44,222 bases of DNA from a virus. The translations under genes were made by a program, and so were the position numbers. Numbering within the stretch: position 1 is the stretch's first letter; each line of letters begins with the position of its first letter. The notes under the pieces were generated by a model. The model was not told the DNA's origin, made no database searches, and saw nothing but the letters and a program-made list of their open reading frames with translations. Positions 125 through 42,754 of the stretch are shown here, one piece after another. Location: the IMG/VR virus record IMGVR_UViG_3300020581_000005, positions 1 to 44,222 of that record. One strand, written 5' to 3'.

Positions 125-180
125 ATTTCGCCGCCGCCACCGACGCAACCGCTGTAATTGCCGCGTTTACCCACCCATGA
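1..180 (+). CDS. C-terminal end of exported beta-rich phage protein (continues from 42755)
   Basis: This is the open frame entering from the left edge and ending with TGA at 178-180; it gives the last 59 residues of a protein whose N-terminus lies at 42755. Joining 42755-44098 to 1-180 gives one 507-residue frame with no stop. The tail is rich in Thr, Ser and Ala, like a beta-sandwich surface domain. Its stop overlaps the ATG of the next gene (ATGA at 177-180), so the two are probably translated together. Function is not recognised; see the entry at 42755 for the signal peptide and paralogy. Confidence 0.85.
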   Translation, partial: AASTVTSNSSTPAGFVDFSSDTAKSDLYQITTAAGVVTHTFNFAAATDATAVIAAFTHP

Positions 181-1106
181 GGCGATGCCTCATAATCTAT
201 ACGATCTGCGGTCTTGTCGCCTCGACAAGCGCTGCTCTAAGTGCGAGCTGCGGACCAGATGCGCCGCCAGCGCCGGCCGTGGCCCATGGCTTTAATTGCG
301 AAGTGTTCTACGACAATTTTGACCATCCGATTGGCACTACCGTCGATATGGGCCAGACCTGGGCGCCGGGATTTAAGTGGTATTTGCAGGGCGGCCAAGC
401 TTATCCGCTGAACCCGGCTGATGTGGCGATACAGGCGCCCGGTACAGAGATAGGCGGGCTGCGGCTGATCCCGGATATCGATTGGACGGCAGCCAACTCC
501 GCGACCAATTTTAACGGGTTGTGGAATATGGGATCGTGCGCCTGGGTCAGCGTCCCCGATAATGTATGGGTCGGACAACAGAATGTTGTCCAGGGCAGCA
601 TGTACATGCAAGTACAGATGTCATCGATATCCAATGGGACAGGCGGGTACTGGTGGCCGGCTATCTGGAACCTTGCGACAGGCCGGCTGTTTGAGTCGAC
701 CGCGGCGCATAACCCGGAGATCGATTTCTTTGAATTCCTGGGCGGGGGCCGTAACATCCATGATTGGCTCGGTGCTTCTGACCCCAGCCCCACGCCCTAT
801 GGCAACGCCAACACAATTGTCTATCCGACCCCGAAGACCTATGGCGTGCTGATTCTAAAGCCGGGCGACAATGGCGGGGTCGGTACGATAAGAGCCTATG
901 AGGGGGCCGCAGCAGGCACCGAGACGCTCGATAATTCCCATAATGTGACGTGGGCTCCTGGTGGGCTTTATTCGTCGACCTCCGAAATGCCGCTGTGTTT
1001 TCTAATCACCTCTGGCTACAACCAGGCCATCGTAATCCGCTCAATTCGGGTGTGGCAAGTGACACCTCCGGGTGCGGGGATTGGTGGTAGGCGATTTTTC
1101 CCTTAG
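177..1106 (+). CDS. Exported GH16-type glycanase (predicted depolymerase)
   Basis: A 309-residue protein with a Sec signal peptide (Arg-rich start, hydrophobic residues about 5-22). Residues 157-163 (GYWWPAI) and EIDFFE at 181-186 match the glycoside hydrolase family 16 active site, where the first Glu is the nucleophile and the last the acid/base (E181, D183, E186). GH16 enzymes cleave beta-1,3/1,4-glucans or galactans in a jelly-roll fold. The gene overlaps the preceding exported gene by ATGA and sits just before the large terminase, so it is a late gene. Inferred role: digestion of host capsule, exopolysaccharide or biofilm. The substrate cannot be told from the sequence. Confidence 0.75.
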   Translation: MRRCLIIYTICGLVASTSAALSASCGPDAPPAPAVAHGFNCEVFYDNFDHPIGTTVDMGQTWAPGFKWYLQGGQAYPLNPADVAIQAPGTEIGGLRLIPDIDWTAANSATNFNGLWNMGSCAWVSVPDNVWVGQQNVVQGSMYMQVQMSSISNGTGGYWWPAIWNLATGRLFESTAAHNPEIDFFEFLGGGRNIHDWLGASDPSPTPYGNANTIVYPTPKTYGVLILKPGDNGGVGTIRAYEGAAAGTETLDNSHNVTWAPGGLYSSTSEMPLCFLITSGYNQAIVIRSIRVWQVTPPGAGIGGRRFFP

Positions 1107-2841: not shown

Positions 2842-3047
2842 GCATTGCCGACGCGGTGCGGGCGCGCGAACTCGAAGCTAAGGTCGCCGCGCTCGAACAG
2901 CGCATGACTCAAATCGAGGGAAGGCTTGATGCCGGCTCTGCGGCCGGTAATGGCGCCCATGTGATGCAGCGTATCAATCTGCTGCAGGGTCAAATCAACA
3001 TGCTGCGGCGCGCCTCCGGTGAGCTGAAGACCGACGATGCCGCTTGA
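2838..3047 (+). CDS. Small coiled-coil protein
   Basis: 69 residues, with ATG overlapping the previous stop (ATGA). It is mostly charged helix with heptad spacing (AKVAALEQRMTQIEGRL, then INLLQGQINMLRRA), so probably a coiled-coil oligomer. Its stop overlaps the portal start by 11 bases, showing tight coupling within the head operon. No family recognised; a head assembly or structural role is suggested only by position. Confidence 0.75.
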   Translation: MSIADAVRARELEAKVAALEQRMTQIEGRLDAGSAAGNGAHVMQRINLLQGQINMLRRASGELKTDDAA

Positions 3048-5409
3048 TAACGGCCTGTTTCCCGACCCGGCCTCCGATCTGAAGTCGCCTCGCGCTCGAC
3101 GGCGCGACCCTAAAGACTTGATGCCAGAGGACGAGCTTCAGGACATCATCCGACGCGAGTTGGGTCAGGCCATCGGTGCCGAGAACGGCAAGTTAAGCAA
3201 CGAGCGCCAAGCGCTGATGGAGGCCTATCAGGGCGAGGAGTTTGCCGACCCGCCACCGGGGCAAAATCGCAGCAAAGTCGTGATGTTGACCGTGCTCGAA
3301 ACGGTCGAATGGGTGTTGCCGGCGCTGTTGCGCATCTTTACCGCCAGCGATTCCATCGCCGAACTCGCGCCCATCCGCACGACGATGACCCCGCCGCCGA
3401 CCGCTCCGGGGATGCCACCGCCGCTCGACCCCGAGGAGGCCGCGCGCCAGGCGACGTTGTATGTCAATCATGTCTTCAATGTAGACAACGATGGCTTCCT
3501 TATACTGCACGACTGGTTTAAGGACGGTTTGCTGCAAAAGCTCGGCTGGATCAAGCGCTGGTGGTCGGAAGAGCAAATAAGGGAAACCAACAGTTTTACC
3601 GGGCTCACCGCCGACGAGTACCAGGCCAAGATACGCGATCTCTCCGATCCAAATTCAAGCGCCGAAGTCGAGATCCTCGAAGAGCGCTCTTATCCGGCCC
3701 CGACGAGTTCCGGTATGGGCGAGGATGCGCCGCAGCCGGTACCACCACAAATGCCGGGCATGCCGCCACAGCCGCCGCCGATGCTTTATGACTGCAAGCT
3801 CCGCGTTACGCGCAAGCAGGGCCGCATAAAGATCGCCAATGTGCCGCCGGAAGAGATTTTGTTCAGCCGACGGTCAACGCGCGAGAACATCCCGTTTTTG
3901 TGCCACCGCCAGCCGACCACACGCACCGCACTGCTGCAACAGGGCTACGACGCCGATTGCCTCGATCAGATCGGCTGGACCGATAGCGAGGACTACAACT
4001 CCGAGCGGCTGCAGCGTTTCATGCCCGACGACGACATGCCCTACACCAACGACCGCACCGACCCGCCAATGCGCATGTACTGGGTCGAAGAGAACTACAT
4101 ACAAGCGGATTATGACGGTGACGGGCTAGCTGAGTTGCTCAAAGTAGTAACGGTAGACCGTTCTGCGGTAATCCTAAAGAAGAAAGGAAAAATAGACGTA
4201 GAGGAAGTGGATGAGATTCCGTTCAATTATTTATGTCCTGTACCAATGCCCCACAAACTCGTGGGTATGGCCGTTGCGGACTTGGTTTTAGATTTGCAGA
4301 GGATCAAGTCTACTCTAATCCGCCAGATGTTAGACAATATTTACTTGACGAATAACCCGAGACACCTGGTCGTCGAGAGTGCGGCGACTGACGAAACCTA
4401 CGACGATTTATTGACCAGCAAGCCGGGCGGCATCGTGCGCGCCCGCACGCCTGATGGCGTTACGCCGCTGATCACACCTTTTGTGGCCGAGAAGGCACAA
4501 GGTCTGGTCGAGTACATGGATCAGACTGCGGAGGTGCGCACCGGCATCTCGCGGCACAACCAGGGATTAGACCCTGATGACCTGAATAAAACCGCAACGG
4601 GTGTCAATTTAATACAGCAGGCCGCCGCACAGCGGGTCGAGCTGATCGCCCGGATCTTTGCTTTCAGCGTGCAAAAGGCCGTCCGCGGCATTCTCGGCCT
4701 GATCAAAAAGCACGCCCAGCAAGAGCGCATCATTCGCGTGTCGGGGGCGCCGCTGCAGACCGATCCGGCGCAGTGGAAGAACGACATGACCGTCTCCGTC
4801 AATGTCGGGCTCGGAACCGGCAACCGCGACCAGATTACCTCGCAGTTGATGGCGCTGCTGAGTGTGCAGCAGCAGATTGTCATGAGCCAGCAGGGTATGT
4901 CGGGGCCGCTGGTCTACGCGAAAAATATTTATGACACGGTTGGCCAGCTTAGCCGGAACGCCGGGTTCAAAAGCAATTTCGCCGTCACTGATCCGACCGT
5001 TCCGCCGCCGCCTTCGGTGACCGGCCCGCCGCAGCCGCCCAAGCCCGACCCGACGCAGGCAATCGCTCAGGCCGAGATGCAGCTGCAGCAACAAAAGGCG
5101 GCCTCCGACGCTCAGCTTAACGAGCAGAAGGCGGCGCACCAGCAGCAGCTATCGAGCCAAAAGGCGAATCAGGAAATGACGCTTGCCGGTCAGCAGGCGG
5201 ATCACCAGCAGAAGCTCGACACCACCAAGATGCAGCAGGCGTTTCTGCTGGCGCAGCAAAAGGCCCAGCACGATTTGGAGATCGAGCGGCTGCGCGCGCA
5301 GAACGACATGGCGATTGAGCAGATGAAGGCTGAGAATGCGCATCAGCTCGCCGTCCACCAGGCCTCTCTCGCGGCGCAGAACCAGCCGGCCCAACAGAGC
5401 GCGGGTTGA
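3037..5409 (+). CDS. Portal protein
   Basis: 790 residues, the size of large podovirus-type portals. The core (about 50-650) has the features of this family: an N-terminal region ending in VVMLTVLETVEWVLPALLRIF, a long helix-rich middle (LVGMAVADLVLDLQRIKSTL) and TATGVNLIQQAAAQRVELIARIF. It forms the dodecameric ring at the vertex through which terminase pumps DNA. The C-terminal 130 residues are Pro-rich and then Gln/Ala/Lys-rich coiled coil, possibly the portal barrel inside the capsid. Bases 4130-4350 use more A/T than their surroundings. Confidence 0.9.
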   Translation: MPLDNGLFPDPASDLKSPRARRRDPKDLMPEDELQDIIRRELGQAIGAENGKLSNERQALMEAYQGEEFADPPPGQNRSKVVMLTVLETVEWVLPALLRIFTASDSIAELAPIRTTMTPPPTAPGMPPPLDPEEAARQATLYVNHVFNVDNDGFLILHDWFKDGLLQKLGWIKRWWSEEQIRETNSFTGLTADEYQAKIRDLSDPNSSAEVEILEERSYPAPTSSGMGEDAPQPVPPQMPGMPPQPPPMLYDCKLRVTRKQGRIKIANVPPEEILFSRRSTRENIPFLCHRQPTTRTALLQQGYDADCLDQIGWTDSEDYNSERLQRFMPDDDMPYTNDRTDPPMRMYWVEENYIQADYDGDGLAELLKVVTVDRSAVILKKKGKIDVEEVDEIPFNYLCPVPMPHKLVGMAVADLVLDLQRIKSTLIRQMLDNIYLTNNPRHLVVESAATDETYDDLLTSKPGGIVRARTPDGVTPLITPFVAEKAQGLVEYMDQTAEVRTGISRHNQGLDPDDLNKTATGVNLIQQAAAQRVELIARIFAFSVQKAVRGILGLIKKHAQQERIIRVSGAPLQTDPAQWKNDMTVSVNVGLGTGNRDQITSQLMALLSVQQQIVMSQQGMSGPLVYAKNIYDTVGQLSRNAGFKSNFAVTDPTVPPPPSVTGPPQPPKPDPTQAIAQAEMQLQQQKAASDAQLNEQKAAHQQQLSSQKANQEMTLAGQQADHQQKLDTTKMQQAFLLAQQKAQHDLEIERLRAQNDMAIEQMKAENAHQLAVHQASLAAQNQPAQQSAG

Positions 5410-6882: not shown

Positions 6883-7851
6883 ATGGCTCTCATCACCAAC
6901 ACGTTTACAACCTACAGTGCAATAGGTTTGCGAGAGGATCTATCTGACATTATATACAACATATCTCCCACAGAGACCCCATTCATGACAGCTATTGCGA
7001 GAGAGAAAGCAACGGCTGTCTATCATGAATGGCAAACTGATGCGTTGGAGACGCCCAACGCTAATAACGCGCAAATCCAGGGCGACGATATCTCGACATT
7101 TGATGCCGTGGTGCCGACCGTTCGCCTTGGCAATTACACGCAGATCAGCCGCAAGACGGTCGTGATTTCGGCGACCGAGGAGGCGGTCGACAAGGCCGGC
7201 CGAAAGAGTGAGAAGGGCTATCAGGTCGCCAAAAAGGGCAAATCGCTCAAACGCGACCTGGAGACGATCCTGCTGTCTAATCAGGCTCGCACGGCCGGCA
7301 CGGTCGGTGCCGCACCGGCCAAGCTCGCCTCGGTTCTGGCCTGGATCAAGACCAACGTCGACGTGGGTGCCACCGGCACTAACCCGGCCGGCGACGGCAC
7401 CAACGCGCGAGGGGACGGCACGCAGAGGGCATTTACCGCCGTCGCGACACCGTCAGGAGAGACACTGTTGCAAAACGTGCTTTCGTCGATCTGGCAGAAC
7501 TCCGGCGACGAGCCCGATTTTGTCCTGGTCAATAGCAACCAGAAAAAGAACATCACCGGCTTTCAAGGAAACAATACGAGATACATCAACGCTGAGGAAG
7601 AAAAGCTGGTTAACTCTATAGACGTATATGTCTATGACTTCGGCAGCGTAGAAATCAAAGCAGACCGCTTTATGCGGCAGCGTGATGCGCTGATTATTAA
7701 CAGCGACTTGTGGGGTCTTGCCTGGCTGCGGCCGATTAACATGACTGAGTTGGCCAAGACCGGCGACAACGACAAGACGATGATCCTCGGCGAGTATACG
7801 CTGACATCACGTAACGAGGCCGGCTCGGGGCTCGTCGCTGATCTGCTCTAA
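6883..7851 (+). CDS. Major capsid protein (SU10 / DUF5309 type)
   Basis: 322 residues. The N-terminus (TNTFTTY, then REDLSDIIYNISPTETPFM) and the middle motif GNYTQISRKTVVIS followed by AVDKAGRKSEKGYQ are hallmarks of the SU10-type major head protein family (HK97 fold). It forms the icosahedral shell. A Shine-Dalgarno CGGAG precedes the ATG. Patches at 6900-7030 and 7560-7660 have noticeably lower GC and different codons than the middle, which may reflect recombination or RNA-level selection. Confidence 0.92.
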   Translation: MALITNTFTTYSAIGLREDLSDIIYNISPTETPFMTAIAREKATAVYHEWQTDALETPNANNAQIQGDDISTFDAVVPTVRLGNYTQISRKTVVISATEEAVDKAGRKSEKGYQVAKKGKSLKRDLETILLSNQARTAGTVGAAPAKLASVLAWIKTNVDVGATGTNPAGDGTNARGDGTQRAFTAVATPSGETLLQNVLSSIWQNSGDEPDFVLVNSNQKKNITGFQGNNTRYINAEEEKLVNSIDVYVYDFGSVEIKADRFMRQRDALIINSDLWGLAWLRPINMTELAKTGDNDKTMILGEYTLTSRNEAGSGLVADLL

Positions 7852-7936: not shown

Positions 7937-9379
7937 ATGCCTGACCTGAGTGACGGCGTCAACTGGTCCGAGGTCGACGCCAATAACAATAATCCCGCCC
8001 CCAACGGCTGGCCCGAGGGCATGATGCCGAGTGGCGTCAATGACGCTGCGCGGGCCGATCGGGGCGCGCTCAAACGCTTTTGGGACCGGATCAACCCGGT
8101 TCAGACAATCATACCGTCTGGTGGTCTCTATACCTTTACGACCGACAACCCCGCCTACCCGACCGCCTATGTCAATGGCGAGATCTATTGCTTTAGACCC
8201 AGTTCCGCATCGGTGGGGGGCGATTTCTTTCAAGTCAACGCGCTCGGCCCGAAGCCCATTTTCAAGCGTGTCGCGGCGGGGCTTGGCGGCTCGGCCGCGA
8301 TCCTTGCTCAGGACATCCTTGGAAACGGCGGCACGCTGCTCGTCTATGATGTCACGCTAAACGCCGGCGCCGGCGCGTTTATGCTGATCAACCCGTTTGT
8401 CCCGATCCACGGTAACGGCACGGGCGGCGTCATCGTCACCGGCGGTCTCACCGCTGGCTCGGTCAACGTGACCAGCGGCGATCTGCGGCTCACCCGCACC
8501 GACCAAGCCTATGGCTACATCACCAGACCAGTCACCCCGGCAGGTTATAATAACCTGGCGTTCGCTGGCGACGGGAACGCGCAGCTCAACGATGTGATCG
8601 TCAACACTAGCCAGATGGAGGTGACCGGGAAGCTGAGCGCCATTGGTTATAGCTCACGCTCCGGCGTCTCCGGCCCCTATCAACCCAACCTCTTTAATAT
8701 CCAGTGGACCAGTGGCGCGGCGCATTTGTGGGTCGATACTACGGACCTGGGTCCAATCATCATCGGGTCCGGCGGCACGATCACCGGCAACATAACCGTT
8801 AGTGGACATCTGAGCGTCAGCTCCGGGGTCGACGTTACCGGCGGGATCGTCGCCAGCGGTAACATCACCACTCCTGCGCTCGTGCAAGGCCAGACTCTGC
8901 ACTCGGTCGGCGACAGCTCTGTCGGCGGCGGTCTGACAGTCACCGGGAGCATTACCAGCGGGAGCATCGCCAGCGGCGCTATCCAGGGAAGCTCGTTATT
9001 TACAACAGGTGACGTGCAATGCGGCGGCGCAATGTCATGCGTCAACGGGTTCGTCGTCACGGCTGGCGCGGCTGAATTTAGCGGCGCGGCTGAATTTAGC
9101 GGCACGGCCGAATTTGGCGGCATTCTAAACGTCTATGGCCCCGGAACCAGCAATGTGTGCTTTACGACCAATTTGAGCGTGCCGCATTTCTACGCCCTGC
9201 CGGGGCAGGCCGACGCACTGATCGTCGAAGGCGGGATCACCGATCTGCGGGGCAATGTCGCAATCACCGGCAACTTGACGGTTAGCGGCACACTCAATGG
9301 TCACCCGGCAATGGATATGTTTACCCAGCTCGACGCATTGGCCGCGCGGGTGCAAGCATTGGAGGATCAGCTGCGATGA
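7937..9379 (+). CDS. Tail fibre / head fibre-like protein with beta-repeat stalk
   Basis: 480 residues. The N-terminal NGWPEGMMPSGVNDAARAD and GALKRFWDRINP is the attachment signature seen at the start of many phage fibres. Residues 60-460 are Gly/Thr/Ser/Val-rich repeats (GNITVSGHLSV, SGNITTPALV, GSITSGSI, AEFSG units), typical of a trimeric beta-helix stalk. The last 20 residues are a short coiled coil (LDALAARVQALEDQL), likely a trimerisation clamp. The position directly after the capsid gene is unusual for a tail fibre. No enzyme domain seen. Confidence 0.75.
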   Translation: MPDLSDGVNWSEVDANNNNPAPNGWPEGMMPSGVNDAARADRGALKRFWDRINPVQTIIPSGGLYTFTTDNPAYPTAYVNGEIYCFRPSSASVGGDFFQVNALGPKPIFKRVAAGLGGSAAILAQDILGNGGTLLVYDVTLNAGAGAFMLINPFVPIHGNGTGGVIVTGGLTAGSVNVTSGDLRLTRTDQAYGYITRPVTPAGYNNLAFAGDGNAQLNDVIVNTSQMEVTGKLSAIGYSSRSGVSGPYQPNLFNIQWTSGAAHLWVDTTDLGPIIIGSGGTITGNITVSGHLSVSSGVDVTGGIVASGNITTPALVQGQTLHSVGDSSVGGGLTVTGSITSGSIASGAIQGSSLFTTGDVQCGGAMSCVNGFVVTAGAAEFSGAAEFSGTAEFGGILNVYGPGTSNVCFTTNLSVPHFYALPGQADALIVEGGITDLRGNVAITGNLTVSGTLNGHPAMDMFTQLDALAARVQALEDQLR

Positions 9380-9910: not shown

Positions 9911-10804
9911 ATGCCTTTTGACTCATACGCGAACCTCCAGGCCACGGTGCTCGATTGGCTCGCCCGGCCTGGCGACCCGCTCGTCGCCCCGGCCGTCCCC
10001 GACATGATTGCGATGTTTGAGGAGGAAGCCAGGGACAGATTGCAGACCCGGTTTACCGAGCAGACCGCGCAGCTGTCGCCGATCGCCGGTCGCGATACCA
10101 TCCCGCTGCCGCTCGATTATGGTGAGCTGCGCTCGATCTGGGTCAATACATCCATCGGCAAGCGGCACTTCCAATTCCAGACGCCGCGCAACCTCGACAT
10201 GAACCTCTGGTGTCTCGATAACTATCCGGTCGCCTATACTATCGAGGGGCTCAATCTGCGCATCGTCGGCACACCGGTTCCAGCCACGGACGCCGCGGAT
10301 GGTGAAACGGGGCCACTGGTGACGCTCATTCCGGCTGCGTCGGCGACGCTCTACCAGGACATTCGCATTGTTCCCACCAGCTTTGTCGGTCTGAGCCCGC
10401 AAACCGCCAACGCTGCCGATGCGCTCTCCTCGGTGTGGGTCGAGCCCGGCACCGGCACCGCGGTGATTCATCATGGCAGTAACCCGAACACCGACCAGAC
10501 ATTCGCCATCTCGGTGGTTAACAGTGTGGATGCCACACAGCTGCCGGGGGTCATAAACATCGATTACCTGTCGGGCATTCCCCCACTCGGTGTGGCGACG
10601 CCGACCAATTGGCTACTGACGGAATACCCTTCGACCTACCTCTGGGGTACGCTCAGCTTTGCCGCTCCCTACATCGGCGACGACCCGCGATTGCAGCTGT
10701 GGCTCAGCGCCCGCGAGGCGGCCATCGAACGCATCCGGCTGGCCGATCGCCGGGCCAAATTTCCGCACGGGCTGATGATCCAGACCGACGTGCGGAACCC
10801 GTGA
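9911..10804 (+). CDS. Head-tail adaptor (tail accessory) with inserted beta module
   Basis: 297 residues. The N-terminal helix region (FDSYANLQATVLDWLARPGD, then MFEEEARDRLQTRF) and the C-terminal helix (RLQLWLSAREAAIERIRLADRRAKF) match the SU10-adaptor/gp10-like family that docks below the portal ring. Residues about 138-197 hold an inserted module (DIRIVPTSFVGLSPQTANA ... IHHGSNPNTDQTFAISV) that is nearly the same as the C-terminal half of the protein at 13608-13952. Such an insertion is not normal for the adaptor family; it may project from the connector as a decoration. Confidence 0.8.
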   Translation: MPFDSYANLQATVLDWLARPGDPLVAPAVPDMIAMFEEEARDRLQTRFTEQTAQLSPIAGRDTIPLPLDYGELRSIWVNTSIGKRHFQFQTPRNLDMNLWCLDNYPVAYTIEGLNLRIVGTPVPATDAADGETGPLVTLIPAASATLYQDIRIVPTSFVGLSPQTANAADALSSVWVEPGTGTAVIHHGSNPNTDQTFAISVVNSVDATQLPGVINIDYLSGIPPLGVATPTNWLLTEYPSTYLWGTLSFAAPYIGDDPRLQLWLSAREAAIERIRLADRRAKFPHGLMIQTDVRNP

Positions 10805-11820
10805 CGCTTTTAACCCGGCGCTCGTTGTTGCGGGTTGGCGCGCTCTCGCCGCTGATCATTCCGGGACGGAGCCTTGCGCGAGTTGGCGGGGCGCCCGCGG
10901 TGGTGGCGCAGGTCTGCGGCGGCAGCCCATTGACGGTGCCGAGCAATGGCGTGATCAACACCCCGGGCTGCTACGCGTTGACCGCCGACATGATAACTGG
11001 GGCACCGGGGCTGAACATCCAGGTCAGCAATGTGACGGTGGTGGGCAATGGTCACACCGTTAATGGGGGCATTACTCTTGGTGTGTTTGCTGGTACTGCA
11101 ACCGGGATCTCAATTCAGGACATTGTTACAAATACCGCTCCGATACAGATTTATGGCAATACTTCAGCGACTCAGACGCCGCCAGCGGTCCATCTCAAGG
11201 GGATTACATTAAATAACAACTCACAGTCGTATGGGATAATTATACAAAATAACAATGTCCTCGTCGAGAACTGCACGCTCAACACAGGTTACACGGTGGC
11301 AGGCAGTTCGGGTATTGATGATTGCATTGCTGCAGGAGGCCAATCCGTTATTTCGCGTTATTGCACCTTCGACACCGTGATGTTTGGTTCGAATTTCGAC
11401 GTCGGGCTAGAGGGATTGGGCACCTGGGATCATTTCACGGTCAAAAACTGTACGAGCATCCAAGGATTGATCGCCAGCTTCGGCGGGTATTACAGCTCGA
11501 TCGCCACTGGTAGCCAGACGACGTCGTTCGCGATGACCAATTGCGCCTTTCAGAGCAACACGGTGGAGGCGGCCAGTGCCTGGTATTTTCCCGATGCTAG
11601 CAACAATCTAGTGCTCCGGAACAGCGATGCTGCAGCGAATGCGCAATGGGGTGGCGCGAGCGGTAACGTTTTTGGCGGGTCAGGAGCGCTAGCTAACAAC
11701 TACGTCACCTTGACCCGCGAGGAGTGCGAGAGACGCGCAGCTCTGTTCGCTCAGTTCCGCCGCCACCCGCCGCCGGGACCGCCCCGCCAAGCATGGGATC
11801 GGAAAATCACCTGTCGATGA
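10801..11820 (+). CDS. Tat-signal right-handed beta-helix protein (pectate-lyase-like fold)
   Basis: 339 residues from a GTG start overlapping the adaptor stop by 4 bases. The N-terminus TLLTRRSLLRVGALSPLII is a twin-arginine (Tat) signal: RR pair, hydrophobic stretch, then ARVGGAPAVVAQ as a cleavage zone. The body (45-310) is made of regular Asn/Gly/Ile/Val turns (LNIQVSNVTVVGNGHTVNGG; IIIQNNNVLVENCTL), typical of parallel beta-helix proteins such as pectate lyases and phage depolymerases. The last 30 residues are basic. GC dips around 11080-11320. It would be folded in the cytoplasm and exported, so it is probably not a plain tailspike. Substrate unknown. Confidence 0.75.
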   Translation: MTLLTRRSLLRVGALSPLIIPGRSLARVGGAPAVVAQVCGGSPLTVPSNGVINTPGCYALTADMITGAPGLNIQVSNVTVVGNGHTVNGGITLGVFAGTATGISIQDIVTNTAPIQIYGNTSATQTPPAVHLKGITLNNNSQSYGIIIQNNNVLVENCTLNTGYTVAGSSGIDDCIAAGGQSVISRYCTFDTVMFGSNFDVGLEGLGTWDHFTVKNCTSIQGLIASFGGYYSSIATGSQTTSFAMTNCAFQSNTVEAASAWYFPDASNNLVLRNSDAAANAQWGGASGNVFGGSGALANNYVTLTREECERRAALFAQFRRHPPPGPPRQAWDRKITCR

Positions 11821-11839: not shown

Positions 11840-12049
11840 ATGGCGTATCTCGATGCCGCCACCAGGCGATTTATTGAGCGGTATGGCTTTACCACTTCGC
11901 TGCGGGATCGCGATCACTTCAATCTTTACATCAAGGGTTCGGAGGATCATCGGCTGGTGATTGCTTTTGGAGAGGGTTACAGGCTGCGGATCTGGCAGGG
12001 GATGCGCGAACTTCAGCGGGCATGGCTCTCTTCTAGGGAGAACTATTGA
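11840..12049 (+). CDS. Hypothetical small protein
   Basis: 69 residues, preceded by a strong GGAGG. It reads as a compact alpha/beta protein (LDAATRRFIERYGFTTSLRD; DHFNLYIKGSEDHRLVIAF; YRLRIWQGMRELQRAW). It lies between the beta-helix gene and the tail gene and overlaps the latter's possible TTG start. No family recognised. Confidence 0.8.
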   Translation: MAYLDAATRRFIERYGFTTSLRDRDHFNLYIKGSEDHRLVIAFGEGYRLRIWQGMRELQRAWLSSRENY

Positions 12050-12051
12050 GT

Positions 12052-13608
12052 ATGGCCGTCGTTCCGTTTGGCGAATATCTGCCGGACGCGCCGGCCTTTG
12101 GTAACCCCGGCAACCGCAACGCGACCAACGTAGTGCCGCGTACGCAGGGCGCCTATGGTCCGATGCCGAGCCCGGTGCCCAATTCAGCACCGCTGCCCGC
12201 CCGGGTCTGCGGGTCGTATGGCTATCGCGACGCGGCGGAACATGTCTTTAACTTCGCGGCGACGCAGCAACGCATCTATCTGCAGGTGACCGGCACGCCC
12301 ACCTTTAGCGACGTGAGCGGGCCGGGCGCGCCCTATCTTACAGACACACCGCCTGACGGCTACTGGCAATTCACCAGCTTCGGCAACCGGGTCGTCGCGA
12401 CCAACTACAATAACCCGCCCCAGACCTATCTCGCGGGTGTCGACAGCGCGTTTAAGAGGCTCTCGATTGATGCCCCGCGCGCCAAGTTCTGCTGCGTGAT
12501 CCGTGATTTTCTTATGCTGGGCAACACGTTCGACTCCAGGGACGGCGCGGTGCCGTACCGTTTGGCGTGGCCGGCGATTGGCGACCCGACTAATTGGCCG
12601 GTCCCTGGCAGCAACGTGGCGATCGAGCTGCAGTCGGACTATCAGGATCTCGTCCAAACCGACATGGGTGCGATAACCCAGATTGTAGGTGGGCATCTCT
12701 CCGCAGCTGACGGTTGTGCTATTTGCGAGAGGGGAATTTACCGGATTCAGTATAGTGGATCGCCGTCAATCTTCAGCTTTGCCGTGGCCGAGGGCGCAGC
12801 GGGAACCGACTCGCCGCTATCGGTGGTGATGCGGCGGCTGTCCAATAGCAACGGGTTCGTCAACGCGGTGATTTATTACCTCGGCAATGACGGATTTTAC
12901 GCTTTTGACGGTAGTTCATCGAGCGCGATCGGAGCGCAAAAGATCGACCGCAGCTTTTTTGCCGATCTCGATGTGCAGTATCTGCGCAACGTGCAAGGGA
13001 CGTGGGATCCCACTAGAAAGCTGATCCTGTGGTTCTACCACGGTGCCGGCAATAACGGTCTTTTCAACCGCGCCGTCGTCTACAATTGGGAGTTGTCGCG
13101 CTGGTCACTGATTGATCTCACCCCGATCCCGGTTGAGTGGATCGAAGCCAACACCTACTCGGTCGGCGGCTACAACCTCGATCAGCTTGATGTGTTTGGT
13201 AACTTAGAACAACTCAAATTCTCATTTGACAGCTTGGCCTTTACCGGGGGTAACCCGCTATTGGGGTGGTTTGACGCCGCCCATCAGCAGAACTACACGA
13301 CCGGGCCGAGCATGCCGGTGACGATCCTGACAACCGAGGCGCAGCTTTTCCCCGACCGCCGGGCGCGCATCACCGGGGTGCGGCCGCTGCACGATGCGAT
13401 CGTGCCCGCCAATGTCGAGGTCGGCACCCGCGAGACGATGCACCACGGGCCGGTTTACCAGGGCGTGGTGCCCGAGAACATCCTTGGCAATTGCCCGCAG
13501 CGCTGTACCGGGCGCTATGTGCGCTTTCGGATGACATTGCCGGCCGGGGCGAATTTCAATTTTCTGCAGGGTCTCGATGTCGCTGCACGGCCGGAGGGCA
13601 TTCGCTGA
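12052..13608 (+). CDS. Tail / connector protein, stabilisation or needle-like (gp10-like)
   Basis: 518 residues from ATG at 12052; a TTG at 12046 in frame is better spaced from the AGGGAG site and would add two residues. The repeated beta blades (FTSFGNRVVATNYNNPPQTYL; FCCVIRDFLMLGNTFD; GCAICERGIYRIQYSG; GNDGFYAFDG) resemble the beta-propeller-like tail hub proteins that close podovirus connectors (P22 gp10-like). The gene follows the adaptor block and ends by ATGA overlap with the next gene. Exact family not certain. Confidence 0.75.
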   Translation: MAVVPFGEYLPDAPAFGNPGNRNATNVVPRTQGAYGPMPSPVPNSAPLPARVCGSYGYRDAAEHVFNFAATQQRIYLQVTGTPTFSDVSGPGAPYLTDTPPDGYWQFTSFGNRVVATNYNNPPQTYLAGVDSAFKRLSIDAPRAKFCCVIRDFLMLGNTFDSRDGAVPYRLAWPAIGDPTNWPVPGSNVAIELQSDYQDLVQTDMGAITQIVGGHLSAADGCAICERGIYRIQYSGSPSIFSFAVAEGAAGTDSPLSVVMRRLSNSNGFVNAVIYYLGNDGFYAFDGSSSSAIGAQKIDRSFFADLDVQYLRNVQGTWDPTRKLILWFYHGAGNNGLFNRAVVYNWELSRWSLIDLTPIPVEWIEANTYSVGGYNLDQLDVFGNLEQLKFSFDSLAFTGGNPLLGWFDAAHQQNYTTGPSMPVTILTTEAQLFPDRRARITGVRPLHDAIVPANVEVGTRETMHHGPVYQGVVPENILGNCPQRCTGRYVRFRMTLPAGANFNFLQGLDVAARPEGIR

Positions 13609-14361: not shown

Positions 14362-16095
14362 ATGTCATTTGGAAGCAAGGGCTCAAGTCCAAGCGGCAAC
14401 ACTACCACCACCCAGACCTCCACAAACCCGACCGCCAATGCGCAGCTGCCATATTTGCAGCAGCTCTGGGGTGGGGCGGCTGGGCTGGCGAACCAGGCGA
14501 ACCAGGCGGGCACGCCATCATCGAACAACCTCTACAACCTCCAGAATTACGCGGCGAACCAGGGTTGGAACAACCAGGGGGCCGCGGGCCAGGTTATGCC
14601 CGCTGCGCTGCAGCAATACCTCAACCAGATCAGCCAGGGATCGCCAGCGGCCGCCCAGGCCGGCCAGCTTACGACCAATGCCGGGCAGGCCGTCAATCAG
14701 GGGCTCGGGTTTAGCCAGGGTCTGGCGGGGGCGGCGAACAACGCGCTGGGTCAGGTGTCCGACTGGCAAAACCGGTTTCTAAATGCCGGGCAGCAGGCAA
14801 ACCAGACGCTGCAAGGCCTAGGTAGTGCAGCAACAGGCGCGCTCACCGGGCTCGCACCGGGCGCGCTCGGCGGCGCGCAGAACCTGTCTGGTCAGGCGCT
14901 CACTGCGGGCAACCCCGCGCAAGCCGGGCTCTACGCTAACGCCGCCCAGGCGCTCGGCGGGAACCCGGCGTTAAGTTCCGGACTGCAAGGTCTGGCGAGC
15001 GGGAAGTACATCGACCCATCGACCAACCCGGCCTATGCCGGCATGATCCAGTCAGCGACCCAGCCGCTCGTCAATCAGTACCAGACGGCGGTGGCGCCGC
15101 AGATCGCCTCCCAATTCGAAGGTGCTGGCCGCTATGGCTCGGGGGCGCAGACCAATGCTCAAGGTCAAGCGCAATACGGGCTCGGGCAAGCGCTCGGCAA
15201 CGTCGTCTCGGGCATTACTAACAACGCCTACAACAGCGGGCTCCAGGCGACGATCGGCGCGGGGCAGGCCGAGGGAAACATCTACAACGCGGGCATTGGG
15301 AATATCACCAATGCGCTCGGCACCTCGGGGCAGCTGGCCCAGGCCGGGGTCAACAATGCCGGCAACCTGCTCAACCAGGGCTACACCACCGCCGGGAATT
15401 TGCTCAATCAGGGTTACACGACAGGCGGCAATCTGGCCAATCAAGGGTACGGCCAGCTCAATAATTTTATGGGCAATGCCTCCAGCCAGGGGCTCGGATA
15501 TCTGAACGCGGGGCTCAGCGGTCTGGGGGCCGGGGCCAACGCGGCGCAGGCCGGTTACGGCACCGCCAATACGGCGCTGACCGGCGCCGGCAACCTGCTC
15601 AACCAGGGCAGCCAGGCGCAAACCAATGCGCTGGGGCAGGCGGCGAGCTTTGCCGGCTATCCTCAGGGTGAGTACGCCGCCGCGTACAACGCGCCATGGG
15701 CGCCGTACACCAACCTGGCGGGCATCCTCGGAGGCGCTGTCGGCGGCACCGGGACGCAAACCACCGCACAGCCTTACTACAACAACACCGGAGCCAACAT
15801 CCTCAGCGGTCTCGGGGGCGGGGTTGGCATCGCCAACGCGATCGGCGGCAGTGGCGCAGGCGCCATGTTCCCCGGCGCCCTGGCGGCGCTTTTCGCCTCC
15901 GACCGGCGGATCAAGCGCGACATCAAGCGGGTCGGGATGCTGCGCAACGGTCTGCCGCTCTACACCTTCCGCTATGTCGGCAGCAAGCGCATGCAGATCG
16001 GCCTGATGGCTGACGAGGTCGAGAGTGTCCACCCCGAGGCGGTTGTCCCGGTCCGCGGCATCAAGATGGTCGATTACGCCAGGGCCGTGCAGTAA
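14362..16095 (+). CDS. Tail fibre/spike with C-terminal peptidase S74 chaperone domain
   Basis: 577 residues. Residues 1-500 are Gly/Asn/Gln/Ala-rich repeats (for example LLNQGYTTAGN repeated at 15363-15455), probably an elongated fibre. Residues about 512-577 match the intramolecular chaperone autoprocessing domain (peptidase S74): SDRRIKRDIKRVG, then YTFRYVGSK, QIGLMADEVESVHPEAV and VDYARAV. The Ser and Lys of SDRRIK are the expected autocleavage pair. This domain helps trimer folding and then cuts itself off. The host-binding part is not recognised. Confidence 0.85.
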   Translation: MSFGSKGSSPSGNTTTTQTSTNPTANAQLPYLQQLWGGAAGLANQANQAGTPSSNNLYNLQNYAANQGWNNQGAAGQVMPAALQQYLNQISQGSPAAAQAGQLTTNAGQAVNQGLGFSQGLAGAANNALGQVSDWQNRFLNAGQQANQTLQGLGSAATGALTGLAPGALGGAQNLSGQALTAGNPAQAGLYANAAQALGGNPALSSGLQGLASGKYIDPSTNPAYAGMIQSATQPLVNQYQTAVAPQIASQFEGAGRYGSGAQTNAQGQAQYGLGQALGNVVSGITNNAYNSGLQATIGAGQAEGNIYNAGIGNITNALGTSGQLAQAGVNNAGNLLNQGYTTAGNLLNQGYTTGGNLANQGYGQLNNFMGNASSQGLGYLNAGLSGLGAGANAAQAGYGTANTALTGAGNLLNQGSQAQTNALGQAASFAGYPQGEYAAAYNAPWAPYTNLAGILGGAVGGTGTQTTAQPYYNNTGANILSGLGGGVGIANAIGGSGAGAMFPGALAALFASDRRIKRDIKRVGMLRNGLPLYTFRYVGSKRMQIGLMADEVESVHPEAVVPVRGIKMVDYARAVQ

Positions 16096-24437: not shown

Positions 24438-25265
24438 TCACGTTCTGCACGGGCAGATCTGCGAAAGACAACAACCGATGATGATTGCACTCATCCCGCA
24501 CCATGCCCACACGCTGGGCAATTCGTGAAACAGGATTAATGAGCCCGCCACGACTACGATCAGCCGGGTATATTCAAACGGCGCAATGATCGATATCGCG
24601 GTCGAGCCTATAGCAACCAGCAATAAATATGTGCCGAGCGGACCGAGGATCATGATCCCGACAAGCTGGGGGTCAGGCCAATTCCAAGACATTCCGATTG
24701 CGGGGAATGTTACGGCGAGATTTGCGCCGGCAACCCACCACATAGTCGTGTTGACCGAGTCGAGCGCAATCGCTTGTTTGTATCCGACGGCCGCCGCCGC
24801 ACCTATGACCGCGGCCCCGAGCGCAGCCAAACAACCGAGATTAGGCGCGGCAAAGCCTGGCTGTATGATCGCCATCGCACCCGCCATCCCAGCCGCTACG
24901 CCAGCCCATTCGGCGGGGCGAGGGGACTCGCCCATGAACAACATCGCGAATAGCGTCATCCACAGCGCGCGTGTGTAGGTTAGCGCTGTAGCAGCGGCCA
25001 ACGGTGCATGGCCAAACGCGTAAATGGCCCCCAGGAATCCCAATGCCCCGAGCAAGCTCCGAGTAATCTGCACGCGAGGCGCAACGCTTCGGACGGCAAT
25101 TTTTTTTGTGACGATAGAGATCACGAGCACAAGGGCTACGCAGCCGAAGCTGCGTAGCAGTGCGATTTGCAAGGCTCCAACGGTGGAGCTGTGGATCAAA
25201 ATGGCTTCTGTTGCCAAACATCCGTAAGCCCCAAGAGCGGCGGCTATGCCGCCATTACGGGACAT
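24438..25265 (-). CDS. EamA/DMT-superfamily transporter (drug/metabolite exporter)
   Basis: 275 residues from ATG 25265, or 293 from ATG 25319. Ten hydrophobic spans fill the chain in two halves, as in EamA proteins: half one has VGALQIALLRSFGCVALVLV, then LGALGFLGAIYAFGHAPLAA and ALTYTRALWMTLFAMLFMGE (conserved helix 4 with downstream Glu); half two has WVAGANLAVTFPAIG and FEYTRLIVVVAGSLILFHEL. It looks full-length and intact. DMT transporters move small metabolites across the inner membrane; the substrate cannot be predicted. It overlaps the HTH gene upstream by 11 bases. Very unusual in a tailed phage; probably acquired from a host. Confidence 0.85.
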   Translation of the reverse strand: MSRNGGIAAALGAYGCLATEAILIHSSTVGALQIALLRSFGCVALVLVISIVTKKIAVRSVAPRVQITRSLLGALGFLGAIYAFGHAPLAAATALTYTRALWMTLFAMLFMGESPRPAEWAGVAAGMAGAMAIIQPGFAAPNLGCLAALGAAVIGAAAAVGYKQAIALDSVNTTMWWVAGANLAVTFPAIGMSWNWPDPQLVGIMILGPLGTYLLLVAIGSTAISIIAPFEYTRLIVVVAGSLILFHELPSVWAWCGMSAIIIGCCLSQICPCRT

Positions 25266-25449
25266 GCTTCCATGATCGTCCCGTGGCGATCGCGTTAACA
25301 ATTGATCGGGAAACGCCATACCGGCGAGCGATTTCTTTTTGTTCGACCTTCTCGGCGAGTAGATGCCGGATTAGCGGAATGTCTGCCTCCGACAGCCGTG
25401 CCGCGTAATGTTCGCCCCCCTGGCTCTTGAGGCCGCGCCCACTCTGCAT
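25255..25449 (-). CDS. Small helix-turn-helix DNA-binding protein
   Basis: 64 residues; the C-terminal two-thirds LSEADIPLIRHLLAEK and KEIARRYGVSRSIVNAIATG form a clear HTH (recognition helix VSRSIVNAIA) followed by RSWKHV, a pattern common in phage HTH proteins linked to HNH or packaging genes. It overlaps the transporter gene and could regulate this cassette. No good Shine-Dalgarno at the ATG. Confidence 0.75.
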   Translation of the reverse strand: MQSGRGLKSQGGEHYAARLSEADIPLIRHLLAEKVEQKEIARRYGVSRSIVNAIATGRSWKHVP

Positions 25450-29534: not shown

Positions 29535-29678
29535 TCAGACAATCGATAACACGGCCCAAAACACCAGCCAGAGCAGCGACCACAGCGTGATGGTCACCAA
29601 CAGGCTGCCCAGAAGCGCCATTGGAAGCGGCCAACGATCGGTCTGGTCGGCTAGAGCGTTCCCGATTGTTGGCGCCAT
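29535..29678 (-). CDS. Small membrane peptide
   Basis: 47 residues from ATG 29678, overlapping the end of the PEP-CTERM gene by 28 bases. A single long hydrophobic span (MALLGSLLVTITLWSLLWLV, then FWAVLSIV) ends the protein. Too small for domain assignment. The overlap means it is translated after the exported protein and may be a partner in the membrane. Confidence 0.55.
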   Translation of the reverse strand: MAPTIGNALADQTDRWPLPMALLGSLLVTITLWSLLWLVFWAVLSIV

Positions 29679-30298
29679 CTGATCCAGGCAAACCCGGCCA
29701 ATGCCGCACCCAGGATTATCAGCGATGACGGCTCGGGGATGGTAGTGGGGGTTCCAACGGCAACGATGCTCACTGAGTAGGACGCGGAGGGATTTGACAG
29801 GCAGGTTGGCACCGGAACGGCAGTGCCAGCACAGACGCCTTGGCCAGTCCACTCCCCAATCCACGCCGAGGCATCAAGTCCGTTGCCTGTGACAATCCCC
29901 GCCATGGCAAATTGCAGCGCATCACTGCCGAGGTCGACGATCTCACTCATGTCCAGCGGAGTGCGCGCAATAGCACCGACAGCGCTTACGTCAAAAGTGA
30001 ATCCCCCATAAGTATAGACGGTCCCGCTCGGAGCCAGCAGGTTGATCGTCTCCGCGGAGACCGGGCCGGCAAGGTTGCAGGCAGGGGCAGCGCTGGTGAA
30101 CGAGCCGGCGCAGGCGTTGGCAGCCGGTAGGCCTTGGGTGACGATGTTCAGGCCCGATACAATCGACGTGCTCGGCACTGGCGGCACTGTAACGCCGCCA
30201 TCCGAGAACGAGAGCGCGCCGATAATCGGGTCAGAAAGAGCCGGGGTTCCGGCCAAGAGTGCGGCAGTAAAGACGGCGGTGATAAGCGAGCGTGTCAT
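29651..30298 (-). CDS. PEP-CTERM sorting-signal protein
   Basis: 215 residues from ATG 30298. N-terminal Sec signal peptide (TRSLITAVFTAALLAGTPAL). The C-terminal 30 residues are a textbook PEP-CTERM tail: IPEPSSL, a hydrophobic span (IILGAALAGFAWI) and a basic end (RWRQQ), the recognition site of exosortase (EpsH/XrtA). The middle is Ser/Thr/Gly/Ala-rich with four Cys and looks beta-rich. In bacteria such proteins are cut by exosortase and placed at the cell surface or matrix. No exosortase is in this window, so the host must supply it. Unusual for a phage. Confidence 0.85.
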   Translation of the reverse strand: MTRSLITAVFTAALLAGTPALSDPIIGALSFSDGGVTVPPVPSTSIVSGLNIVTQGLPAANACAGSFTSAAPACNLAGPVSAETINLLAPSGTVYTYGGFTFDVSAVGAIARTPLDMSEIVDLGSDALQFAMAGIVTGNGLDASAWIGEWTGQGVCAGTAVPVPTCLSNPSASYSVSIVAVGTPTTIPEPSSLIILGAALAGFAWIRWRQQSGTL

Positions 30299-30314
30299 TC
30301 GTTGAGTCCTTTGC

Positions 30315-30509
30315 TCATGATTGCCCTTCGGCCCCGGCATCCTCGCAGCAGCTCGCGGTCCCGCCCATGCAGTGGCTGCATGGTGTCCAGATCACCTGCT
30401 TCGGGGGCCGCAGATGCGCCAGTAAGGCGAGTTCGGCGGCGCTATGCTCGACAAACACCGGTAGATAGCCGGGTTTGCCAAACTCCCAACAAAAACGACA
30501 GGCTGCCAT
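30315..30509 (-). CDS. Small cysteine-rich protein (zinc-ribbon-like)
   Basis: 64 residues, preceded by GGGAGAGAGAG. Cys4 and Cys7 (CRFC), then Cys44 and Cys47 (CSHC) and CC near 53-54 suggest a zinc ribbon or knuckle. It is the first gene of the leftward recombination operon, directly after the operator-like repeats at 30604-30639, so it should be expressed early. Role unknown. Confidence 0.7.
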   Translation of the reverse strand: MAACRFCWEFGKPGYLPVFVEHSAAELALLAHLRPPKQVIWTPCSHCMGGTASCCEDAGAEGQS

Positions 30510-40377: not shown

Positions 40378-42243
40378 ATGACCAGTGCAATCAATCCGGC
40401 CTTCCCGGTCAGCGGATCGACGCCTGGACCTACGACAGCTTCGGTCCGCAACAACTTTTCGATTGCTCAGAGCGAGATAACGCAACTGCAGAACGTGACG
40501 GCGGGCGGGCCTTTTATCTCGACCGCGGGCGGAAATATTACCGGCACGGCGCCCGGCATGCTGACGGTACAGCGCGCGACAAATCTGCCGCCGGCGCCGG
40601 CCAACACCGCTCCGGTGTTATGGGGTGTCGGGGTCGGCGGCAGTCCCGGCGAGAATCCGACGGTGGTGGTCGACGGCGTCGGCGGGGCGCCGGGAATGGT
40701 GTTGCGCCGGGTCAACAACATCGTGATCAGCCCGACTCCGGTCGTTTCTGGCGATCTTATGGGCATCATCGGCGCGCGCGGCTATTACAGCGGTGCGCCG
40801 AGCGCCTATAGCGACACCGGCAACGCGCAGATCGAATTTCAAGCACTCGACAATTTCACCACTGGCACGCGCGGCGCCAACATCTTGCTACGGGCGACCC
40901 CGTTTGGCTCGTCGGTTATCCGAACTGAGGCGACGATCGGGCCGGGGCTGACGATTGGGCCGGTGACCGGAACGGTTCCGGGTGGGATGCAGCAGGGCGA
41001 CCTGAATGTGTTCGGCCGGATCATGCAAAACGGGTCGGTGATTGGCTCGGGTGGTGGCGGCGGGAGCGGCACCGTTACTAGTATCGTCTTTAGCGCTCCG
41101 CTAACCGGTGGGACGATCGTGACTTCGGGCACGGTCGGGTTGGGCAATGTCCCGGTGACCAATCTCGCCGGTGGCGCGGGCGCCTCGGCAGCTACTTTTT
41201 GGCGCGGTGATGGCACTTGGGCGACGCCCGCCGGTAGCGGTGGCAACGTCAGTGCAGGCGCTGCCTTGCCCGCCAATCAACTCGTACTCGGCGCTGGTGC
41301 ACAAGCGGTCGCGGCGCTCGGATCGCTCGGCACCGCGGGTCAGGTGTTGACCTCAAACGGTGCCGGGCTTGCGCCGAGTTTTCAAACCGGTAGCGGCGGC
41401 GGTGGCGGATTGCCGCTGACCGGCGGCACGATCACCGGCACCGCACCGGGCAATGTCATCGTGCAGCGCGGCAGCGCGCTGCCGATTGCGGCAGCTGGTG
41501 CAACCGCTGTCTTTTGGGCCGCCGGCAACACTAACGAAGTTGCCTCCGTGGTGGTCGATGCGATTAACAATGTCCCCGGCATGATCATTCGCCGGGCCAA
41601 TGGGACGGGCGCGACTGCGATCGCGGCCACTGATGTCATCGGCAACATCGGATTTCGCGGCTGGTTTTCCGGCGCCTCGCCAGGCTACGCCGCCGTCGGC
41701 AATGCGCGCATCCTGGTTACTGCGGTCGAAGCATTCACCGATGTCGCTCAGGGCACCAAAGTCGATATCATGACGACACCCGTCGGCCAGACCGCCCCTC
41801 AAGTGCAGGCGACCTTTGGTGGGCTTAATCCCGGTCTGACGGTGGGCACGCCCGCGGCGCAAAGCAGTCCGGTGATCGGCGATATCAACTGCCAACGGTT
41901 GTTTATCAATGCGACCCAGGTCACTCCCGGTGGTGGGGCCGCCGAAACCTATGCCGCCATCGCCGCGAACGGTGCGACGCTCGGGACCGCCGCCGCGCTC
42001 AGCGCCGATTTTAGCGAGGTGACGAGCCAAACCGGCGGCGGAACGGGGGTGATCTTGCCGACTGGGAGCCCGTGTCTAAAGCGCAAAGTCCGCAACAGCC
42101 TGGTGGGTATATCGATCCTGATTTATCCGCCCAGCGGCGCGACGATCAACACTCAGGCGGCCAGTGCGCCGATCACGCTGATCCCCAACAGCACCGCCTA
42201 TTTCGAAGCAGCCTCGGCGACAAAGTGGTTCACCATCCCATGA
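40378..42243 (+). CDS. Tail fibre with internal 140-residue duplication
   Basis: 621 residues. The N-terminus (VSGSTPGPTTASVRNNFSIA, SEITQLQN) is a common attachment region of phage fibres. Two similar modules occur at about 50-200 and 340-500: NITGTAPGMLTVQRATNLP / TITGTAPGNVIVQRGSALP, VVVDGVGGAPGMVLRR / VVVDAINNVPGMIIRR, and GARGYYSGAPSAYSDTGNA / GFRGWFSGASPGYAAVGNA. A Gly-rich linker separates them. The last 70 residues form a distinct beta domain (VILPTGSPCLKRKVRNS). Likely a trimeric receptor-binding fibre. Confidence 0.8.
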   Translation: MTSAINPAFPVSGSTPGPTTASVRNNFSIAQSEITQLQNVTAGGPFISTAGGNITGTAPGMLTVQRATNLPPAPANTAPVLWGVGVGGSPGENPTVVVDGVGGAPGMVLRRVNNIVISPTPVVSGDLMGIIGARGYYSGAPSAYSDTGNAQIEFQALDNFTTGTRGANILLRATPFGSSVIRTEATIGPGLTIGPVTGTVPGGMQQGDLNVFGRIMQNGSVIGSGGGGGSGTVTSIVFSAPLTGGTIVTSGTVGLGNVPVTNLAGGAGASAATFWRGDGTWATPAGSGGNVSAGAALPANQLVLGAGAQAVAALGSLGTAGQVLTSNGAGLAPSFQTGSGGGGGLPLTGGTITGTAPGNVIVQRGSALPIAAAGATAVFWAAGNTNEVASVVVDAINNVPGMIIRRANGTGATAIAATDVIGNIGFRGWFSGASPGYAAVGNARILVTAVEAFTDVAQGTKVDIMTTPVGQTAPQVQATFGGLNPGLTVGTPAAQSSPVIGDINCQRLFINATQVTPGGGAAETYAAIAANGATLGTAAALSADFSEVTSQTGGGTGVILPTGSPCLKRKVRNSLVGISILIYPPSGATINTQAASAPITLIPNSTAYFEAASATKWFTIP

Positions 42244-42752
42244 AAAAGTTCGCCCTTGTCGCCTGTTGCATGCTGTGGTCGGTCACCTGCTGGGCACAGA
42301 CCGCGATGCGGCCAGATCAGATCTCGCCGGCCACACCCGACATCACCTGGGGGCAGAATGGCACCGGCACCGGCTACCAGATCGGGACCATCATCCCATG
42401 GCGTACCGACAGCGCGACGCCGCCGGTGTTCAGTCCAACCGATAACGCTCGGATCGTCGAGGTGACCGGCTGCGCGGCCGGGTGCGCCACCGCGACGCTG
42501 CCGGATGCGACTGGATCGAGCGGCGCATATCCCACCGGTTTTGCGTTTAAGATTCAGGTCAAAACCGGCACGCTCACCCTCAACCGGGCAAGCGCTTCGC
42601 TGATCAACGGCAAGACCGCCATCAAGGTGGGGGCGTATCAGAATGTCAGTCTGGTCGCGCGCGGCACCAATTGGTACGCGTGGCTGGGTGCGCCGCAGCC
42701 GGCCGCGCAGACCGGCGCTTCGAAACTCTCCGACAGCATGGCGTGGCAATAA
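42240..42752 (+). CDS. Exported virion-region protein, paralogue of next gene
   Basis: 170 residues; ATG overlaps the fibre stop (ATGA). KKFALVACCMLWSVTCWAQT is a Sec signal peptide, with Cys at 9-10 and 17. The mature part begins AMRPDQISPATPDITW and continues as a beta-rich domain (GFAFKIQVKTGTLTLNRASA; KVGAYQNVSLVARGTNWYAW). It is about 45 percent similar to the first 170 residues of the next protein. Exported fibre-linked proteins are rare; function unknown. Confidence 0.78.
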   Translation: MKKFALVACCMLWSVTCWAQTAMRPDQISPATPDITWGQNGTGTGYQIGTIIPWRTDSATPPVFSPTDNARIVEVTGCAAGCATATLPDATGSSGAYPTGFAFKIQVKTGTLTLNRASASLINGKTAIKVGAYQNVSLVARGTNWYAWLGAPQPAAQTGASKLSDSMAWQ

Positions 42753-42754
42753 TA

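Follow-up and report, generated by a model that had tools for sequence, protein, structure and literature searches.

Phages are known to use Sec or holins for moving proteins out of the cytoplasm. In the literature searched, no native Tat-exported phage protein was found, and an endolysin was only artificially fused to a Tat signal (PMC9527704). Among bacterial proteins, WceF of Pantoea stewartii is a Tat-exported, tailspike-like beta-helix stewartan hydrolase of 736 aa, which is trimeric by crystal structure and acts on the exopolysaccharide of its own species (PMC7949094). TIGR03808 (RR_plus_rpt_1) is a Tat-translocated repetitive protein family of Hyphomicrobiales, found in 43 of the 61 genomes of that order surveyed. 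Here, we describe a phage gene whose product combines a predicted Tat-type signal with a putative beta-solenoid body. That a tailed phage exports a folded, tailspike-like beta-solenoid via the host Tat pathway, within a wider set of exported proteins, is proposed tentatively, with somewhat less than even confidence.

The window, i.e. the whole IMG/VR viral contig of 44,222 bases, has the same 124 bases, directly repeated without mismatch, at both ends (1-124 and 44099-44222), and is therefore probably a complete genome of ~44.1 kb. The SU10 portal, major capsid and adaptor that define the SU10-like class were all matched by profiles (Table 1), which assigns the phage by protein similarity to the SU10-like podoviruses; the portal and major capsid genes lie upstream of the adaptor and of the gene under study. 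Relatives of the protein encoded at the downstream border carry nozzle or stabilization annotations, and proteins of Rhizobium and Bradyrhizobium phages are among them; from these relatives we infer an alphaproteobacterial host. The Hyphomicrobiales are one plausible host group, and their genomes were rich in Tat signals in 26 of 26 cases.

Table 1. Features of the phage genome, in window coordinates
Feature	Coordinates	Strand	Basis or remark
ORF upstream of the large terminase	177-1106		Sec-type signal peptide (MRRCLIIYTICGLVASTSAALSA)
SU10 portal	3037-5409		PF23899, 6.5e-179
SU10 major capsid	6883-7851		PF17236, 5.9e-90
Longer fibre-like protein	7937-9379
SU10-type adaptor, upstream border of the slot	9911-10804	+	PF24175, 4.5e-17; phrog_2941
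Slot gene, 339 aa, intact ORF	10801-11820	+	Tat-like signal and beta-rich orphan body
Candidate Tat signal peptide, residues 1-26 (MTLLTRRSLLRVGALSPLIIPGRSLA)	10801-10878	+	Motif, shuffles, host Tat signals
Beta-rich body, residues 38-305	10912-11716	+	Composition; AF2 single-sequence models
Basic, proline-rich C-terminal tail (TLTREECERRAALFAQFRRHPPPGPPRQAWDRKITCR)	11707-11817	+	Sequence
69-aa orphan ORF, fills the remainder of the slot	11840-12049	+	Preceded by GGAGG
Nozzle/stabilization-type virion protein, downstream border of the slot	12052-13608	+	phrog_3287, 1.1e-50
Longer fibre-like protein	14362-16095
EamA-family transporter	24438-25319	-	PF00892, 1.4e-13
ORF with PEP-CTERM motif	29651-30340	-	Sec-type signal peptide; PF07589, 4.3e-6, above cut-off
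Longer fibre-like protein	40378-42243
First of two paralogous ORFs	42072-42752		Sec-type signal peptide
Second of two paralogous ORFs	42671-44222 (end)		Sec-type signal peptide

Among relatives with ~80% identical capsid proteins, the interval between the adaptor and nozzle genes proved variable. The gap was 2-6 bases in L003 and L008-L010, i.e. the slot is empty, and 382-1,918 bases in other relatives, where it holds different genes. In the phage studied, the slot comprises the 339-aa gene and the 69-aa ORF, and the latter had no relative among the related phage loci compared. The slot genes of L002, L012, L013-L016 and L087 encode 411-543-aa proteins with no assigned function, and some relatives' slot proteins have a common segment, PPLGQSMM.L.S.VAPYL.GGAPGGSMSAGMRLPGK. 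Because the slot is variable, empty or otherwise filled in relatives, the 339-aa gene is accessory and outside the core virion machinery, and its product is dispensable for virion assembly in those relatives. The GC content in the middle of the gene is 0.45-0.52 versus 0.61 for the genome, consistent with a recent acquisition.

The preliminary description had located the gene inside the virion gene block, which is right by position yet misleading for such a slot; lying among structural genes does not in itself imply that the product is part of the virion. The product could remain in the cytoplasm as a virion component, either a small tailspike or a beta-helix associated with the tail; its RR-rich N-terminus would then attach it to the virion or be left over from the signal of a recruited host gene, and would not work in export. 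The site between adaptor and nozzle genes, the short hydrophobic core described below, and the phage tailspikes and pectate-lyase-like phage proteins among the sub-threshold structural neighbours would all suit such a component. However, the neighbouring genes are intact in those close relatives that lack this gene, other and longer fibre-like proteins are already encoded in the genome, and no homology to any virion family was found. We consider a virion component unlikely, and an accessory exported role the more likely one.

The ORF limits given in the preliminary description were recovered exactly. The gene starts with GTG at 10801, whose last two bases open the adaptor stop codon (GTGA), and no clear Shine-Dalgarno sequence precedes it. 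The slot genes of L013 and L015 (411 aa, unrelated) start with GTG at exactly the same base, that of L014 starts there with ATG, and those of L002, L004, L005, L012, L016 and L087 start 1 or 2 bases later (TGATG or TAATG). Since relatives' slot genes begin at the same overlap (GTGA/ATGA/TGATG), a translation start upstream of the twin arginine is well supported by this comparison, and the overlapping arrangement supports translational coupling to the adaptor gene. A start downstream of the twin arginine, which the preliminary description had raised against its own Tat assignment, would lie at TTG 10825/10828 or at GTG in residues 34-35, and would yield a cytoplasmic protein with the RR segment arising by chance. 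Although the missing Shine-Dalgarno sequence agrees with this, and RR is common in coding sequence of high GC and arginine content (2,163 sites near the starts of 4,625 ORFs in related phage loci, 13 of them scoring at least as high as the phage N-terminus in the matrix given below), the start position common to relatives speaks for the upstream codon, and none of the high-scoring sites listed combined a credible gene start with a similar hydrophobic run behind the arginines. We regard a chance RR behind a downstream start as very unlikely.

As had been claimed, TRRSLLRVGAL is present at the extreme N-terminus. Residues T5-R6-R7-S8-L9-L10-R11 are followed by VGALSPLIIPG and then by a possible cleavage site after SLA and before RV, placed by eye. 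The layout is T-R-R-x-L-L-R, an uncharged core, an arginine as the basic residue of the c-region, and S-L-A, and residues 5-11 (TRRSLLR) conform to the Tat pattern (S/T)RRx(F/L)L(K/R) in the n-region. The twin-arginine motif is genuine, and composition alone would seldom produce it: when this N-terminus was shuffled, 0.012% of trials gave the strict form [STND]RR.[FLM]x[KR] near the start, and 0.17% gave a relaxed one. A motif matrix was derived from 30 Tat signals of Hyphomicrobiales, with nine TIGR03808 proteins kept out of the building; on this matrix the phage N-terminus scored 2.2, inside the range of those nine (-5.1 to 8.7). An arginine in the c-region was also found in several host Tat signals.

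The hydrophobic stretch behind the motif is present, but weaker than had been stated. It comprises only 11 uncharged residues, fewer than any of the 39 host signals compared (17-25 residues in 30 profile-selected Hyphomicrobiales Tat signals and 12-24 in nine TIGR03808 members examined), and falls below the ~13 or more uncharged, moderately hydrophobic residues expected of a Tat h-region by the TATFIND rule. The Tat profiles TIGR01409 and PF10518 gave no match to the phage protein, which counts weakly against Tat because TIGR01409 recognised only four of nine genuine TIGR03808 N-termini, two of them above its cut-off; Tat profiles thus overlook about half of genuine Tat proteins. Taking the motif, the arginine at the K/R position, the basic c-region residue, the S-x-A and the start together, the N-terminus is best read as a Tat-type signal, which remains a prediction because it is atypically short and undetected by any Tat profile. 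Recognition of the predicted signal by the host Tat system is judged likely, somewhat above an even chance, though not secure.

Alternatively, the protein might be exported via Sec, or anchored in the membrane by an uncleaved N-terminus, with the twin arginine being incidental. This would agree with the core hydrophobicity of 1.62, which lies at the top of the range in the 30 profile-selected Tat signals (0.55-1.70), with the shortness of the core, a trait of Sec signals, and with the Sec-type signals on other ORFs of the same phage. However, a twin-arginine consensus and a basic c-region residue favour Tat over Sec, and the phage N-terminus carries both; two prolines in or beside the core also argue against Sec or an anchor. 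We hold this alternative to be distinctly improbable, and retain the Tat-type signal.

A crude scan of the same genome yielded the ORFs with Sec-type signal peptides listed in Table 1, while no convincing one was found by the same scan in ~94 kb from three related records. These ORFs may lend support to an export theme in the genome. The ORF upstream of the large terminase contains the motifs WWPAIWNL and PEIDFFEFLGG and is GH16-like on motif alone, and had no Pfam, PHROG, PDB-sequence or phage match. The minus-strand ORF at 29651-30340 ends in its PEP-CTERM motif, by profile a sorting signal for a host exosortase system carried by a phage gene. The two paralogous ORFs near the end of the record are neighbours, each with QTA(M/L)RPDQISPATPDITW after its signal, and adjoin the last fibre-like gene. 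The EamA-family transporter is probably a captured host gene.

The body of the protein is rich in G/T/N/A/S/V/I and low in K/R/E, with seven Cys in residues 38-300, a composition that suits a beta-solenoid. Two AF2 single-sequence models were mostly strand at low confidence (pLDDT 42), and a helix was modelled at residues 306-321 of the C-terminal tail, also with low confidence. The opening of the body (INTPGCYALTADM ... SNVTVVGNGHTVNG) presumably resembles that of bacterial parallel beta-helix repeat proteins. The periodic Asn/Gly/Val pattern that the preliminary description had invoked was not recovered, as autocorrelation of hydrophobic or N/G residues gave no positive peak near 20-25 residues. 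Pfam, PHROG and NCBIfam searches matched no beta-helix family (PF13229, PF05048, pectate-lyase-like), and the trimmed body matched PF20585 only at E 1.3; an NsrR-like NCBIfam match (E 0.1) was rejected as chance. Foldseek against the PDB and viral models returned no E below 0.2, hence no significant fold match, and its sub-threshold lists hold many solenoids, including isopullulanase, PL6 lyases, pectin methylesterases, WceF and tailspikes. As to stacked parallel-strand coils, the observations comprise the strand-rich models, at pLDDT 42, and the many non-significant solenoid matches. On composition, the beta-rich models and the kinds of fold that crowd the sub-threshold matches, a beta-helix body is plausible, with roughly two chances in three in its favour.

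By sequence, the body appears to be an orphan. No relative was detected by tblastn in 50,697 phages or 72,556 plasmids, by pattern scans of IMG/VR and GTDB contigs, which reach close relatives only, in 25 related phage records, or in ~1,100 proteobacterial genomes (six genomes, 397 Hyphomicrobiales, 398 phylum-wide and 317 order-wide). The weak matches in genomes covered short segments biased in composition or were interrupted by stops, and were rejected. Across 161 related loci (4,625 ORFs of at least 100 codons), no other credible gene with a Tat-like start was observed, and TIGR01409 revealed no Tat-type protein in the 25 related phage records. The rarity of Tat targeting among phages, asserted beforehand, is borne out within these loci, these records and the literature searched.

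We propose that the gene represents accessory cargo in a variable slot, flanked by the adaptor and nozzle genes and coupled in translation, and that its product is synthesized late, alongside the structural proteins, because the gene would belong to the structural operon. The first ~26 residues would serve as a twin-arginine signal; the protein would fold in the cytoplasm, be recognised by host TatBC, cross the inner membrane in folded form and be cleaved near the SLA-RV junction. The beta-solenoid-like body might then bind or trim a host envelope or extracellular polysaccharide, possibly to loosen the matrix so that progeny are released, or to mask receptors and thereby hinder superinfection. 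This combination of a coupled accessory gene, predicted Tat export and action on an envelope or extracellular glycan comes close to an even chance without quite reaching it. A start resembling an 'export folded' tag suggests that the host would place a phage protein outside the cytoplasm. If true, a native Tat substrate would mean that the phage needs a protein folded before export, as with glycan enzymes that are trimeric or tightly folded, and would link infection to a host pathway open to clean knock-out. The variable adaptor-nozzle slot also marks a definite site at which further phage cargo may be sought.

Compared with known systems, the phage protein belongs by sequence to neither WceF nor TIGR03808. 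It would resemble TIGR03808 in its twin-arginine signal and proposed beta-helix-like repeats; membership was rejected, as the model (cut-off 120 bits) gave no match and a profile of 12 members gave 0.8 bits. With P22, Sf6 and HK620-type beta-helix tailspikes or depolymerases it shares a likely beta-solenoid body and a gene in the structural region, but it differs in having no significant fold or sequence match, an apparent export signal, and a gene absent from close relatives. As in 'moron' genes, presence and absence vary at one site with conserved flanks and the base composition deviates; whereas a moron has a promoter and terminator of its own and forms an independent unit, this gene appears from its arrangement to be coupled into the operon. 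WceF shows no sequence relation to the phage protein (no match in the PDB sequence search), and its structural match to the phage model was non-significant (rank 17, E 1.7). The likeness lies in a Tat-type signal before a right-handed beta-helix, as proposed here, and as a working analogy WceF offers a plausible model for a phage protein acting on an extracellular glycan. The gene would thus combine two known kinds, a phage cargo gene and a predicted Tat-exported beta-helix protein.
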